From positions 1 through 64,000 of IMG/VR virus record IMGVR_UViG_3300043775_002839: DNA of 64,000 nt. The stretch is one strand, 5' to 3'. The position numbers and the translations under genes are program-made. Source of the stretch: a virus. This document shows positions 4,496 to 54,227 of this stretch, in pieces. Every line of letters begins with the position of its first letter. Within the stretch, counting starts at the first letter, position 1. The notes under the pieces were generated by a model. It was not told the origin of the DNA. It did not search any database and saw only the letters and a program-made list of their open reading frames with translations.

Positions 4496-5152
4496 ATGAA
4501 TTTTGTAACGATTGACTTTTCCCTAAATTCACCAGGTATTTGCATCTTTTCAGATGACAAGTACTACTTTATTGGGTATTTAAAACCAAACACAGGTACT
4601 AAAGCCGAACAAAAGCTTCAAGAGGAATTAGACTTGCTTGAAGATACCAGAATTACTCATCAACCGGATTGGACGAATAACGAGGCCTATTCTAAAAGCG
4701 AGATGATTAAAATCCAGCGACACACCCAGACTGCAAGTGACATTATTAATATGATTATTGAAATTGCAGGCGATGATTCCCCTTTTGTGATTGCTTTTGA
4801 AGGCTCCTCTTATGGTTCTTCGGGTGGAACTAATAATATTATTGATATGGCGGCTGGAGCAGCAATCCTAAAGATGGAACTAATGTCGAGGCTTAAAGTC
4901 CAAGATATGATGACCATCGCACCTTCGACGATTAAGAAACATGCAGGTAAGGGTAACATGAAGAAGGATGAACTTTGGGTTAAATTCTTGGATAACGTTT
5001 TAAACGATTCAGTGCTTGAAACCTCGTCACTGCTTGGATTCTGTAAAACCCACATCGGAGAGACTAAAAAAGTCCCAAAACCTTTAGATGATTTGGTGGA
5101 TGCCTATTTTCTGAACCACTTAGCCCGGACTCTATTTTACCCGGAGGCTTAA
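4496..5152 (+). CDS. RuvC-like Holliday-junction resolvase
   Basis: 218 residues with an RNase H-like plan. The first acidic strand is TIDFSLNSPGICI (Asp7), the second is FVIAFEGSSYGS with its Glu near residue 102, and C-terminal acidic residues lie in KPLDDLVDAYFLNHLAR. These match the spaced carboxylates of RuvC-type resolvases that bind two metal ions. T4 itself uses endonuclease VII (gp49) for this task; RuvC-like enzymes replace it in many other large phages. It probably resolves branched DNA before packaging. A gp32 gene follows after a structured leader. Confidence 0.65.
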   Translation: MNFVTIDFSLNSPGICIFSDDKYYFIGYLKPNTGTKAEQKLQEELDLLEDTRITHQPDWTNNEAYSKSEMIKIQRHTQTASDIINMIIEIAGDDSPFVIAFEGSSYGSSGGTNNIIDMAAGAAILKMELMSRLKVQDMMTIAPSTIKKHAGKGNMKKDELWVKFLDNVLNDSVLETSSLLGFCKTHIGETKKVPKPLDDLVDAYFLNHLARTLFYPEA

Positions 5153-5179
5153 AGACTTTAGTTATATTCAACATGTAAG

Positions 5180-5290
5180 TTTTTGTTTCAAGAATCTTAA
5201 AAAATATTTTAAGAAGGTAACTTTATGCCTCCAGGGACATGTCACCCTGATAAAAAAGATATATAATAATATAGATTCTTGAAACAAAAA
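5180..5290. repeat. Perfect 18-bp inverted repeat, 75-base loop
   Basis: The arms 5180-5197 and 5273-5290 are exact reverse complements. As RNA they would form a long hairpin that encloses both a smaller hairpin and a promoter-like motif. The poly-U/poly-A ends of the arms could also act as a bidirectional terminator between the resolvase gene and gene 32. Confidence 0.85.
5258..5266 (+). promoter_or_regulatory. GATATATAA promoter-like motif, gene 32 leader
   Basis: Exact match to the motif that recurs ahead of many genes in this window. It is unusual in lying 124 bases before the start codon and inside the inverted-repeat loop, so it would give a long leader. Confidence 0.4.
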
Positions 5291-5381
5291 AGAGAGTTTC
5301 TATATAACTATCATAAGTAATTAAAAGGGCCCTTAACACTTATTAAATTAAAGTTTAACAAAAATTAAAGCAATTAAAGAC

Positions 5382-6305
5382 ATGGCAGAATTTGACATTT
5401 TTAATCTTGGCGTAAATGACGTCGAAACACACGAAACCCAAGCTTCATCTGGAAGCGATCTTTACAAACCTACCGCAGATGACGGTAAGGATGGAACTTA
5501 TAAAGCAATGATTCGCTTTGTTCCTAACCCAACAAACCCACGAAACTCTTTAGTGAAAAAATACGTACACTGGCTAACTAATGCAAGTGGTGACGGTAAA
5601 ATGGTAGATTCTCCATCAACAGTTGGAGCTCCATGTCCTATCGCAGATGTATTCTTTAAGTTACGTAAAAGTGACTCAGCAGTTGACCGTAAAATGAGTG
5701 ATAAACTTAAAAGACGTGAGCAATACTTTGCACTTATTAAAATCATTAAAGACCCACAAAATCCTGAACTAGAAGGACAATACAAAGTTTTCAAATTTGG
5801 TTACAAAATCAAAGAGAAAATCGATGAGGAATTAAAACCAGCATTTGGTGAACCAACTCAAGTATTTGACCTATTTGCAGGTAAAAACTTCGAATTGATT
5901 ATTACTCGTCAAGGAGAATTTAACAACTACGATAAATCTAAGTTCTCTTCAAAAACTTCACCTATTGAAGTTGATGGTAAAGGTGCAACCAGAACTCCTG
6001 AAGCAATGGGTGCTATTAAAGCAGAATTGGAATCAGCTCCAAGCCTAGAGCCATACGAATACAAAGCATGGGACGGAGAAACTCTTGATTTTGTTAATTC
6101 TATTCTTAGAAATTACTTAAATCCTGGAAGTTCAATAGATTCAGTTGTTAATAAGCCTGCTGCTAAAAAAGCTCCAGCAAAATCTGAACCAACTTCAGAA
6201 TCTAGTGATTTTGAATTCCCAAATGAAATGGTAGGAAATCCAAGCTCTACTAACGTAGATTCTTCTGATGACCTAGATTCATTCTTAAACGACTTAGATA
6301 TTTAA
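5382..6305 (+). CDS. 32: Single-stranded DNA-binding protein gp32
   Basis: 307 residues (T4 gp32 is 301). The core matches gp32, with strands around KDPQNPELEGQYKVFKFGYKIKEKI and FELIITRQGEFNNYDKSKF. The C-terminus is an acidic tail (SSDDLDSFLNDLDI), the usual contact site for replication partners. T4 gp32 binds zinc through one His and three Cys; here the region reads VDSPSTVGAPCPIAD with a single Cys, so the zinc site appears lost. The protein coats ssDNA during replication, recombination and repair. It is followed by a strong terminator and preceded by a structured leader. Confidence 0.88.
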   Translation: MAEFDIFNLGVNDVETHETQASSGSDLYKPTADDGKDGTYKAMIRFVPNPTNPRNSLVKKYVHWLTNASGDGKMVDSPSTVGAPCPIADVFFKLRKSDSAVDRKMSDKLKRREQYFALIKIIKDPQNPELEGQYKVFKFGYKIKEKIDEELKPAFGEPTQVFDLFAGKNFELIITRQGEFNNYDKSKFSSKTSPIEVDGKGATRTPEAMGAIKAELESAPSLEPYEYKAWDGETLDFVNSILRNYLNPGSSIDSVVNKPAAKKAPAKSEPTSESSDFEFPNEMVGNPSSTNVDSSDDLDSFLNDLDI

Positions 6306-21642: not shown

Positions 21643-23067
21643 ATGGAATTTATAGACGCATTAAGACAAGATGATATGTTAACTGAAAATGGAATGGCGA
21701 CAAATTCGACATCATTGAATGCTTGCGTTGACCTTTTCTTTAACATTGGAGCTATGAGAGGACAGGACAAGCAACGTTTGATTGCTACTTTCTCTAAAGC
21801 ATTTAATGAAGACCCAAAGCGCGCTATGAAACTTCTTTTTTGGGCTAGAGATGTTCGAGGTGGAGCTGGAGAACGTCAAGTTTTCAAAGACATTTTAGTC
21901 TACTTGGCAGAAAACCACGACTTGGTACTTAAACCAAACTTACACTTAATTTCTGAGTATGGACGTTGGGATGATTTATTAGTCTTAACAGGAAAATATC
22001 TTGAAAAAGAGGCATTCACCCTAATTTCAGATGCTTTAATTGCTGAAAATAATTTATGTGCAAAATGGATGCCCCGTAAAGGACCAATCGCTGAAAAGTT
22101 ACGTAAATTTACTGGAATGTCTCCAAAACAATACAGAAAATCTCTTGTAGGTTTAACTAATGTTGTTGAAACTAAAATGTGTGCTAAAGATTGGAATTCT
22201 ATTGACTTCGGTAAATTACCATCAGTAGCTTCTGCACGTTACCAAAAAGCCTTTGGTAAAAATGCATACGAAAGTTATTCAGCGTATATTGCTTCCCTTG
22301 TAAAAGGTGAGGCTAAGATTAATGCAGGTGCAGTTTATCCTTACGATATTATTACATCGTTAGAGCGTGGAAATGCAACCGTAGCAAACGAACAATGGAA
22401 AGCCTTGCCAAACTATTTGGAAGGTGCAAATGATATGATTTTACCAGTAGTAGACGTTTCAGGTTCTATGTCAACTCCAGCTGGTGGAAGTAAAACTGTA
22501 ACTTGTATGAATGTTGCAATCTCATTAGGTCTCTATATTTCTGAAAGAAATGAAGGTCCTTTCAAAGATGCATTTATTACATTCTCAAGTAAACCACAGT
22601 TACAAGTATTAAGTGGCTCACTGAATGATCGCTACACACAGATGTCAGACTCTGATTGGGGAATGTCAACAGATCTTGAGGCTACATTCAAACTGATCCT
22701 AGATCAGGCCACTAAGCACAAATTATCGCAAGATAAAATGCCAAACAAAATCCTAATCCTATCGGATATGGAGTTTAACACGGCAACATCAAAACGATAT
22801 GGAATAGAAAGTGGATGGAATCCAACTGCGCAGCAGATGATTGAAACTATGTATTCCGATGCAGGTTACAAAGTACCTCAAATTGTTTACTGGAACATTC
22901 AATCCCGAAACGGAGGAGTACCAGTTTCATTTGATGCTAAAGGAACTGCCCTAATTTCAGGATTCTCTCCAGCGATTATGACAAGCCTACTTGGAGGAGA
23001 TATAGAATCTCCACAACAAATAATGGATAAAACAATTTTGAGTGAGAGATACGCTCCAGTTGTTTAA
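21643..23067 (+). CDS. Ro60-like TROVE/DUF2828 protein with vWA domain
   Basis: 474 residues. The N-terminal ~260 residues are alpha-helical repeats with LFWARDVRGGAGERQVFKD and SEYGRWDDL, the pattern of TROVE/DUF2828 proteins. The C-terminal von Willebrand A domain starts at ILPVVDVSGSMSTP, carrying an intact MIDAS DxSxS, with a later Asp in ILSDMEFN. Ro60 proteins form RNPs with Y RNAs and with defective RNAs. The downstream 23.07-23.44 kb segment lacks a gene and ends in a terminator, which is the usual place for a Y-like RNA. Function in this phage is inferred. Confidence 0.75.
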   Translation: MEFIDALRQDDMLTENGMATNSTSLNACVDLFFNIGAMRGQDKQRLIATFSKAFNEDPKRAMKLLFWARDVRGGAGERQVFKDILVYLAENHDLVLKPNLHLISEYGRWDDLLVLTGKYLEKEAFTLISDALIAENNLCAKWMPRKGPIAEKLRKFTGMSPKQYRKSLVGLTNVVETKMCAKDWNSIDFGKLPSVASARYQKAFGKNAYESYSAYIASLVKGEAKINAGAVYPYDIITSLERGNATVANEQWKALPNYLEGANDMILPVVDVSGSMSTPAGGSKTVTCMNVAISLGLYISERNEGPFKDAFITFSSKPQLQVLSGSLNDRYTQMSDSDWGMSTDLEATFKLILDQATKHKLSQDKMPNKILILSDMEFNTATSKRYGIESGWNPTAQQMIETMYSDAGYKVPQIVYWNIQSRNGGVPVSFDAKGTALISGFSPAIMTSLLGGDIESPQQIMDKTILSERYAPVV

Positions 23068-25133: not shown

Positions 25134-26321
25134 ATGAACAAAATTAAAGTAGGAATTATTGGAACTGGAAATTGCGCTAAATCATTAGTTGAAGGTGTAC
25201 AATATTACACAGAGAATCCAAATGATATTACCGGAATGATGAAGTCCGATATTGGAGGTTACAAAGCAGAAAATATTGAATTTGTCTGTGGATTCGAAAT
25301 TGATGAACGTAAAGTTAATCAAACATTAGGATATGCACTTAAACAAAGACCAAACTCTGCATGGGACATTGTTGATGTAATCAAATCTGAGGCTCCAGTT
25401 TATGAGGCTCCAGTAATTGATGGTTATGCAGCCCTTATGGATAACTATCCAGAACAAAATCGTTTCTTAGTTGACGAAAAACTAAGAAATTCTACAGACA
25501 TGAATCGCACTGATTGGACACCAAAAAAATCAAGAGAATGGAAGGATTCAATCATTGCTAAATTAAAAGACCATGGAGTTGAGGTATTGATTAACTACTT
25601 ACCGGTAGGTTCTCAAAAAACAACTGAATTCTGGGCTGAAATTTGTCTTGAAACAGGAATCTCACTAGTAAACTGTATTCCAGTTTTTATTGCATCTGAC
25701 CCAGCTTGGGAGCAGCGATTTATCGATGCTGGAATTCCAATTATTGGAGATGATATGCGTTCTCAATTTGGAGCAAGTATTCTTTCTCAAATGTTACAAG
25801 AACTTGCCTTTGAAAGAGGACATCATGTAAAAGCCCACATCCAAAGAAATGTTGGAGGTAACACAGATTTCTTAAACATGGAAGACAAATCTCGTCTAGC
25901 ATCTAAAAAGATTTCTAAAGAAAATGTTATCCGTGCACAAAACGAAATCCGTGGAATTTCAACTGAAGATTCATTCTTACACGCAGGTCCTTCTGAATAT
26001 ATCGCATTCTATGGTGATAACAAAGTTGCTAACTTCCGTTTAGAACTTACAGGATTCGGTGGAGCACCAGTTCTTTTTGATGCTCAATTAAGTGTACAAG
26101 ACTCTCCAAACTCTGCAGGAGTTGTAATTGACGCAGTTCGTTACTTAAGAGTTGCAAGAGAATTAGGAGTTGTAGGAGCCTTAAGAGGTCCTTCAGCATT
26201 TACACAAAAAACCCCACCAGACCAGATGATGTTTGCTGACGCTGTTTATGAATGTACTGAATTGGCTGCAAGACGCCTAACAGATTCTACAAGAAAACAG
26301 TTAGTTGCTAAAACAAAATAA
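25134..26321 (+). CDS. ino1: myo-Inositol-1-phosphate synthase
   Basis: 395 residues. The N-terminal Rossmann motif VGIIGTGNCAKSLVEGV binds NAD; LINYLPVGS, NCIPVFIASDPAW, IIGDDMRSQFGASI and RNVGGNTDFLNM are signature segments of the short bacterial/archaeal inositol-3-phosphate synthases. The enzyme converts glucose-6-phosphate to inositol phosphate. Sequence looks complete with no frameshift. Rare as a phage gene. In Bacteroidota, inositol phosphates feed inositol lipids, so host-envelope change or a phage-specific modification are both possible. A strong terminator follows. Confidence 0.9.
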   Translation: MNKIKVGIIGTGNCAKSLVEGVQYYTENPNDITGMMKSDIGGYKAENIEFVCGFEIDERKVNQTLGYALKQRPNSAWDIVDVIKSEAPVYEAPVIDGYAALMDNYPEQNRFLVDEKLRNSTDMNRTDWTPKKSREWKDSIIAKLKDHGVEVLINYLPVGSQKTTEFWAEICLETGISLVNCIPVFIASDPAWEQRFIDAGIPIIGDDMRSQFGASILSQMLQELAFERGHHVKAHIQRNVGGNTDFLNMEDKSRLASKKISKENVIRAQNEIRGISTEDSFLHAGPSEYIAFYGDNKVANFRLELTGFGGAPVLFDAQLSVQDSPNSAGVVIDAVRYLRVARELGVVGALRGPSAFTQKTPPDQMMFADAVYECTELAARRLTDSTRKQLVAKTK

Positions 26322-53855: not shown

Positions 53856-54227
53856 ATGGCTAAAACTAAAAACTATTTAAACAATAAGGACTTACATGAT
53901 GCAATGAGTGAATCCAAAAATATGGATAAACTGACACCAACTGCAGAAAAAATGTTAATCCTATTAGCAGAACGCGCAATTAACAGAATGTCTTATGTTA
54001 ACAAAGACGACCGGGATGATTGCCTCCAATTTGCAATGTTAGACCTCTTAAAATATTGGAGAGGATTTAACCCAGTCTATCCAAATGCTTTTGCCTATTT
54101 TACAGAAATTGCCAAACGAGGATATGCCAAAGGTTGGAATAAAATTCATCCACAAAAATACAAAGGTACTATCTCTATGAGTAGAACATCAGGAGATGAT
54201 GATAGTGGCGGGATCTATTCTATTTAA
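53856..54227 (+). CDS. 55: Late-transcription sigma factor gp55-like
   Basis: 123 residues, shorter than T4 gp55 (185). NYLNNKDLHDAM at the start parallels T4 gp55 NYVNNKELLQAI. A sigma region 2-like helix follows (DRDDCLQFAMLDLLKYWRGFNP..PNAFAYFTEIAKRGYAKGWNK), where T4 has NPHAYITQACFNAF. The C-terminus is Gly/Ser-rich ending in IYSI, a possible clamp contact. It would direct RNA polymerase to the GATATATAA-type promoters. The stop overlaps gp4 by one base. Confidence 0.72.
   Translation: MAKTKNYLNNKDLHDAMSESKNMDKLTPTAEKMLILLAERAINRMSYVNKDDRDDCLQFAMLDLLKYWRGFNPVYPNAFAYFTEIAKRGYAKGWNKIHPQKYKGTISMSRTSGDDDSGGIYSI

Follow-up and report, generated by a model that had tools for sequence, protein, structure and literature searches.

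An 18-bp inverted repeat before gene 32 of a T4-like phage most likely combines two divergent middle-type promoters, with a putative gp32 operator downstream

A textbook example of feedback on translation is the autocontrol of gp32, the single-strand DNA-binding protein of phage T4. Belin reportedly described antisense transcription at T4 gene 32 in 1987, and the late promoters of T4 share the octamer TATAAATA. The T4 gene 32 operator is defined as several UUAAA/UAAA repeats that are unstructured and overlap the initiation region, and the source describes these repeats and a pseudoknot as both being essential for repression (PMC535899). In the T4 leader itself, TTAA stands at −31, −27, −22 and −17. 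Part of this literature reports that RB49 is without the operator pseudoknot, and a review calls for a more thorough study of gp32 autocontrol in diverse T4-related phages (PMC3014915). The middle promoters of T4 carry a MotA box, with a centre TGCTT located 12 ± 1 bp from the −10 (PMC2988021). The T4 origins oriF and oriG are described as a middle promoter combined with an A+T-rich unwinding element (PMC3016281); oriG (ori34) is annotated as primed by an RNA running opposite to late gene 34.

The DNA analysed here, which we refer to as the window, is a stretch of 64,000 nt within a 93.7-kb record in which 98 of the 102 mechanical ORFs lie on the plus strand. The phage is T4-like and has a gp23-like capsid. 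By gp32, the nearest records in the phage collections are a 462-kb uncultured phage (51%) and the Prevotella Lak phages (~37%). These records suggest a Bacteroidota host, as do the TATATTTACA boxes, which we take to be the Bacteroidota promoter consensus. Boxes of this kind stand before several ORFs between 64 and 93.7 kb of the record (G000; loci L083 and L084), where they suggest a third, host-like early promoter class. The gene order also differs from that of T4, since gp32 is preceded here by a RuvC-like gene, whereas in T4 segG and 59 come before gene 32. The two genes and the elements of the repeat between them are as follows.

4496-5152, plus strand: RuvC-like resolvase gene upstream of gp32 (phrog_159, E 1.5e-14)
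5159-5167, plus strand: left member of a 9-bp inverted repeat outside the arms (partner 5302-5310), at the two −10 regions
5180-5197, plus strand: 5′ arm of the 18-bp perfect inverted repeat, from the repeat search
5232-5249, plus strand: inner CAGGG...CCCTG hairpin (arms 5232-5236 and 5245-5249), not conserved
5258-5266, plus strand: putative late-type promoter box GATATATAA, from copy count and gene context
5273-5290, plus strand: 3′ arm of the 18-bp perfect inverted repeat, from the repeat search
5382-6305, plus strand: gp32 single-strand DNA-binding protein gene (PF08804, 68.4 bits against a cut-off of 26.8; phrog_224)

The arms TTTTTGTTTCAAGAATCT and AGATTCTTGAAACAAAAA are fully complementary over 18 bp, with 75 nt between them. 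The perfect repeat pointed out in the initial annotation is real. Shuffling 5153-5381 by dinucleotides 500 times gave perfect inverted repeats of 13 at most, and in the 64-kb window the pair is the sole one with arms of at least 16 at a comparable distance. The inner CAGGG/CCCTG pair is likewise present, and the promoter motif said to be enclosed by the repeat corresponds to the promoter-like GATATATAA box in the loop. The accompanying claim, that an mRNA started at this motif would hold only the 3′ arm, is correct as anatomy: an RNA begun at the late-type box would include no more than the 3′ arm, and one begun at the middle promoter (predicted start ~5313) would include neither arm. The outer 9-bp pair flanks the 18-bp arms and continues their symmetry. 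Copies of the arms or the loop elsewhere in the window were not found above chance. A match at 93596-93616 (L002) was rejected as a copy of the element, being another middle-type promoter whose spacer happens to contain AAAAAGATATATAATA. It may be added that CCCGGAGGCTTAAAG (5140-5154) and CTTTATGCCTCCAGG (5221-5235) are 87% complementary, which gives the left transcript's start a near copy in the loop.

Judged by its motifs, the 18-bp mirror repeat is most likely two outward-pointing copies of the phage's own mid-infection promoter. From the centre outward, each arm reads TTGAAACAAAAA, followed by TATAAC at 17 nt (right) or 18 nt (left) past TGAAAC; within each arm lies the −35-like box of the phage middle-type promoter (TGAAAC-N17/18-TATAA). 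The promoter of the 3′ arm points to gp32 and that of the 5′ arm points left, antisense to the RuvC-like gene. Their parts are located as given below.

5161-5166, minus strand: −10-like TATAAC of the leftward promoter, with a predicted start at ~5156
5185-5190, minus strand: −35-like TGAAAC of the leftward promoter, in the 5′ arm, with an 18-nt spacer to the −10
5280-5285, plus strand: −35-like TGAAAC of the rightward (gp32) promoter, in the 3′ arm, from the motif match
5303-5308, plus strand: −10-like TATAAC of the gp32 promoter, with a 17-nt spacer and a predicted start at ~5313-5316; found in 47 of 49 clusters

Matches to the motif expression in the 93.7-kb record number 15 on the plus strand and 2 on the minus strand, one of the latter being the 5′ arm. 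Exact TGAAAC-N17/18-TATAA occurs at 7 plus-strand sites in the window, all of them ahead of ORFs, at 50-53 nt in 6 of the 7 and at 102 nt for gp32. Among the genes behind the motif in the window are one for a gp55-like late sigma and that of the clamp loader gp44, and on this ground we call the promoters middle-type. Two further genes stand behind such promoters: a myo-inositol-1-phosphate synthase-like gene (25134-26321, plus strand, PF01658, E 1.5e-22), which follows its promoter directly and is unusual in a phage, and a gene for a DUF2828/DUF7788 protein (21643-23067, plus strand, phrog_850, RNA-binding, E 7e-154). In relatives having blocks of minus-strand genes the same motif faces these blocks, at 23 nt from the −10 to the gene start. 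Because the motif thereby faces minus-strand genes at its usual distance, its reading as a promoter gains support. Such sites are seen at G002:C1:6721, G003:C1:91051, G001:C1:19392 and G004:C1:58125. A generic sigma-70 scan listed neither of the two divergent sites. As in the MotA promoters of T4, a phage-specific upstream box is joined to a TATAAT-like −10 ahead of replication genes; unlike them, the box is TGAAAC at 17-18 nt from the −10, as against TGCTT at ~12 bp. A search of 5 records, possibly fragmentary, gave 0 matches to the domain of MotA, the T4 factor (PF09114).

For conservation, loci with more distant gp32 were added and the upstream 420 nt were clustered, giving 49 clusters; the sequences come from environmental contigs and lack phylogenetic independence. 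On this scale the rightward promoter is present in 47 of 49 clusters. The exact leftward TGAAAC-N18-TATAA is present in 40 of them, as compared to a shuffle mean of 0.01 and a maximum of 1 per 49. When leftward spacers from 10 to 25 were scanned in the 49 clusters, only 18 occurred, save for one case of 13. A one-base variant of the left site takes the same place in 6 more clusters (L127, L139, L142, L145, L172 and L174), with a spacer of 18, or of 19 in L127 and L172. The left site is absent from L048, which was searched over 1.2 kb from gp32, and from L103 and L104; the last two are the most distant gp32 loci, and both promoters are missing there. The first search had given the left site with the 18-nt spacer in 60 of 62 distinct loci. 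The misses were L048 and L020, the latter having 205 nt of upstream sequence only; it was scored as a miss in the 62 and was merged with a fuller copy at clustering. The position table uses 38 of the 49 clusters, and in it both boxes are fixed by the match pattern. Across 7 large relatives we counted 98 motif sites, 85 oriented with gp32 and 13 against it. The 13 are made up of 7 before gp32 (one per phage), 4 that face minus-strand genes and 2 inside plus-strand genes. The unexpected part is this conserved antisense promoter, as its sequence would have it, beside gp32.

Between the two middle-type promoters lies the box GATATATAA, which by analogy with T4 we regard as a late-type promoter box. 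It has 14 copies on the plus strand and 0 on the minus strand of the 93.7-kb record. Of the 8 copies in the window, 6 stand 31-41 nt ahead of an ORF, with distances of 124 nt for gp32 and 119 nt for the major-capsid-like gene. The genes preceded by the box include those of the gp21-like prohead protease and the gp23-like major capsid, but an HNH endonuclease-like gene is among them as well. In 42 of 49 clusters this region contains a GATATATA or AATATATAG box. As in the gp55-dependent late promoters of T4, a short A/T box stands before virion genes, and a candidate for a gp55-like late sigma is encoded at 53856-54227 on the plus strand (phrog_234, E 1.2e-8), behind a middle-type promoter of its own. 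The box differs from the T4 octamer, being GATATATAA here.

The best joint explanation, to which we give a probability of about 0.82, would be a divergent pair of middle-type promoters with a late-type box between them and a gp32-binding array in the leader. The inverted repeat would then be a layout at the DNA level, formed by two divergent promoters of the form TGAAAC, 17 or 18 nt, TATAA. The right promoter would give the gp32 transcript, and the left one, starting at ~5156, a non-coding RNA antisense to the RuvC-like gene and the late genes upstream. With the late-type promoter between the pair, gp32 could be expressed in both the middle and the late period. The gp32 mRNA of the middle promoter would begin downstream of both arms and carry an unstructured leader with phased UUAAAG/UUAACA repeats, which gp32 probably binds cooperatively, repressing its own translation. 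In this picture the motifs with their spacing and conservation, the genes around them and the repeat array are read from the sequence, and the start sites, the promoter activity and its timing, and the binding of gp32 are predicted from it.

The leftward promoter is the part for which no gene to be served was found. Its transcript would start about at the RuvC stop codon, and conservation there extends for ~20 nt with none beyond ~+25. A hidden antisense gene was rejected, as no frame is common to the 55 distinct loci (loci with <400 nt on the left having been dropped) and some have no frame at all. A hairpin at the start of the left transcript was considered as well; a conserved TCTTTAAGCCTCNGGGTAAA stretch is present in many loci, but since its folds are weak and inconsistent we claim no hairpin. 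One tentative possibility is a regulatory role, in which antisense RNA from this promoter would damp the expression of the RuvC-like gene and of the late block on its left during the middle period. A start at the RuvC stop that is aimed into plus-strand genes would suit such a role, and in the relative G003 the 100 kb around gp32 holds 96 plus-strand and 0 minus-strand mechanical ORFs. The antisense transcription reported for T4 gene 32 points the same way. However, synonymous conservation in the RuvC gene is raised in the last five codons only, with no constraint beyond them (26 loci, in which the RuvC stop is 8 nt from the −10 box).

It is rather unlikely, in our estimate, that the left promoter provides a replication primer, in which case the R-loop of a middle transcript would prime leftward synthesis and the pair would mark an origin beside gp32. 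The comparison with T4 speaks for it, since oriG likewise has a middle-type promoter antisense to a late gene. The leftward middle-type motif, which is conserved, would be the candidate primer promoter. A left transcript with neither a conserved frame nor conservation beyond ~+25 is what a primer would permit. Moreover, the GC skew at four-fold sites differs between the left and the right of gp32 in one relative, but the overall skew keeps its sign and the four-fold difference may reflect gene class only. The A+T-rich unwinding element of oriG is not seen here: the first 150 nt of the left transcript have a GC content of 0.36-0.38 against 0.34 further on (76 loci). The place in the gene order is also another than that of oriG. 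The origin reading is no more likely than antisense control of the late block. That large T4-like phages throughout a clade keep a single dedicated counter-directional middle promoter at gp32 whose sole product is a non-coding antisense RNA, one that could prime leftward replication, we consider unlikely. A search of open-licence literature turned up no description of an antisense promoter at gp32 for phages of this kind.

On the right side, the middle-promoter leader contains two further features.

5321-5336, plus strand: TTAAAAGGGCCCTTAA palindrome (GGGCCC) with which the gp32 leader opens; in other relatives this place has GGTACC or no palindrome
5321-5379, plus strand: TTAA repeat array, a putative gp32 translational operator (leader 5321-5381), from repeat count and shuffles

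Seven TTAA start at 5321, 5333, 5343, 5348, 5355, 5365 and 5374, that is, 5-12 nt apart. The collection of 81 loci yielded 79 leaders (none from L028 and L029), of which 40 are distinct. In these 40, TTAA[AC] has a mean of 4.4 in the last 50 nt (minimum 3) vs 1.47 after shuffling, and 113 of the 145 repeat intervals measure 8-10 nt. Of 80 loci, 68 have at least 4 TTAA[AC][AG] per 45 nt at gp32; no other such stretch occurs in these loci, whose total of 700 kb contains heavy overlap between homologues. The 93.7-kb record has one further TTAA[AC][AG] cluster, at 92886.

As with the T4 operator, the array sits ahead of a gp32 gene and offers several UUAAA/UAAA repeats that are unstructured, run up to the start codon and overlap the initiation region. 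The repeats differ in being mostly 8-10 nt apart and often UUAAAG or UUAACR, whereas the TTAA starts of T4 are 4-5 nt apart. As to the 5′ pseudoknot of T4, secondary-structure folding gave only a weak hairpin at the start of the leader (−1.6 kcal/mol) and no stable structure resembling it. It is plausible from the sequence that the array is the gp32 autocontrol site; the autoregulatory site proposed earlier would then lie not within the inverted repeat but further downstream, in the 5321-5381 TTAA array. We think it quite unlikely that the array is merely an A/T-rich, translation-enhancing leader of the host type. Bacteroidetes mRNAs are described as naturally without Shine-Dalgarno sequences (PMC6847099), and their leaders may for that reason be under selection for other features. 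But 29 other long leaders of the same record have at most 2 TTAA[AC] against 6 at gp32, and the confinement of the dense arrays to gp32 in 68 of the 80 loci tells against a general leader property. By eye, the gp32 leaders of Lak megaphages (L087 and L088) show the same TTAAAG repeats, with an in-frame TAG near the gene start, and use of the ATG that follows the repeats requires this TAG to be read through. TAG is reassigned in Lak phages.

The initial annotation also suggested that the repeat could switch between termination and expression. This finds no backing in the comparison of 24 distinct relatives (the window included, and taken from those without an inserted ORF). All 18 pairs are intact in 9 of the 24, and only the six pairs of the promoter box are kept in 24 of 24. 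Outside the box there are 12 pairs; breaks affect the 7 inner ones in 9-14 of the 24 and the 5 outer ones in 1-10, with few double changes. By this pattern a conserved RNA stem was rejected. The inner hairpin was rejected as a conserved element as well, since its exact form occurs in 1 of 24, the window alone, and no stem was found in 10 of 24. An intrinsic terminator or attenuator was also dismissed, there being no T-run after the stem and no conservation by compensatory changes. Rfam gave 0 matches at gathering score in the window, the sub-threshold hits being at chance level. In many clusters a plus-strand ORF of ~56-70 codons (e.g. in L030, L046 and L069) separates the two promoters; it is absent from the window clade. 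The leader RNA folds more stably than its shuffles on both strands (z of −3.8 on plus and −4.9 on minus), which merely restates the inverted repeat. That the repeat is an RNA hairpin, whether attenuator or gp32-controlled switch, in upstream read-through transcripts is therefore highly improbable despite the perfect stem in the window clade and the z of −3.8, given the broken pairs, the absent T-run and the intervening ORF. A clade-specific function of the stem may exist in the nearest relatives of the window, because the full 18 bp is kept there (9 of the 24 distinct relatives).

Dozens of divergent phages keep the leftward promoter, which has no gene, at a fixed spacing, and this points to an origin or to a conserved antisense transcript. 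If the origin reading is true, gp32 synthesis and origin firing would be switched on together by one divergent promoter pair. Downstream, the phased UUAAR array extends over a large clade of uncultured T4-like phages, and the Lak phages show it by eye too. As a putative operator, it would extend the question of gp32 autocontrol past the T4 relatives studied so far.
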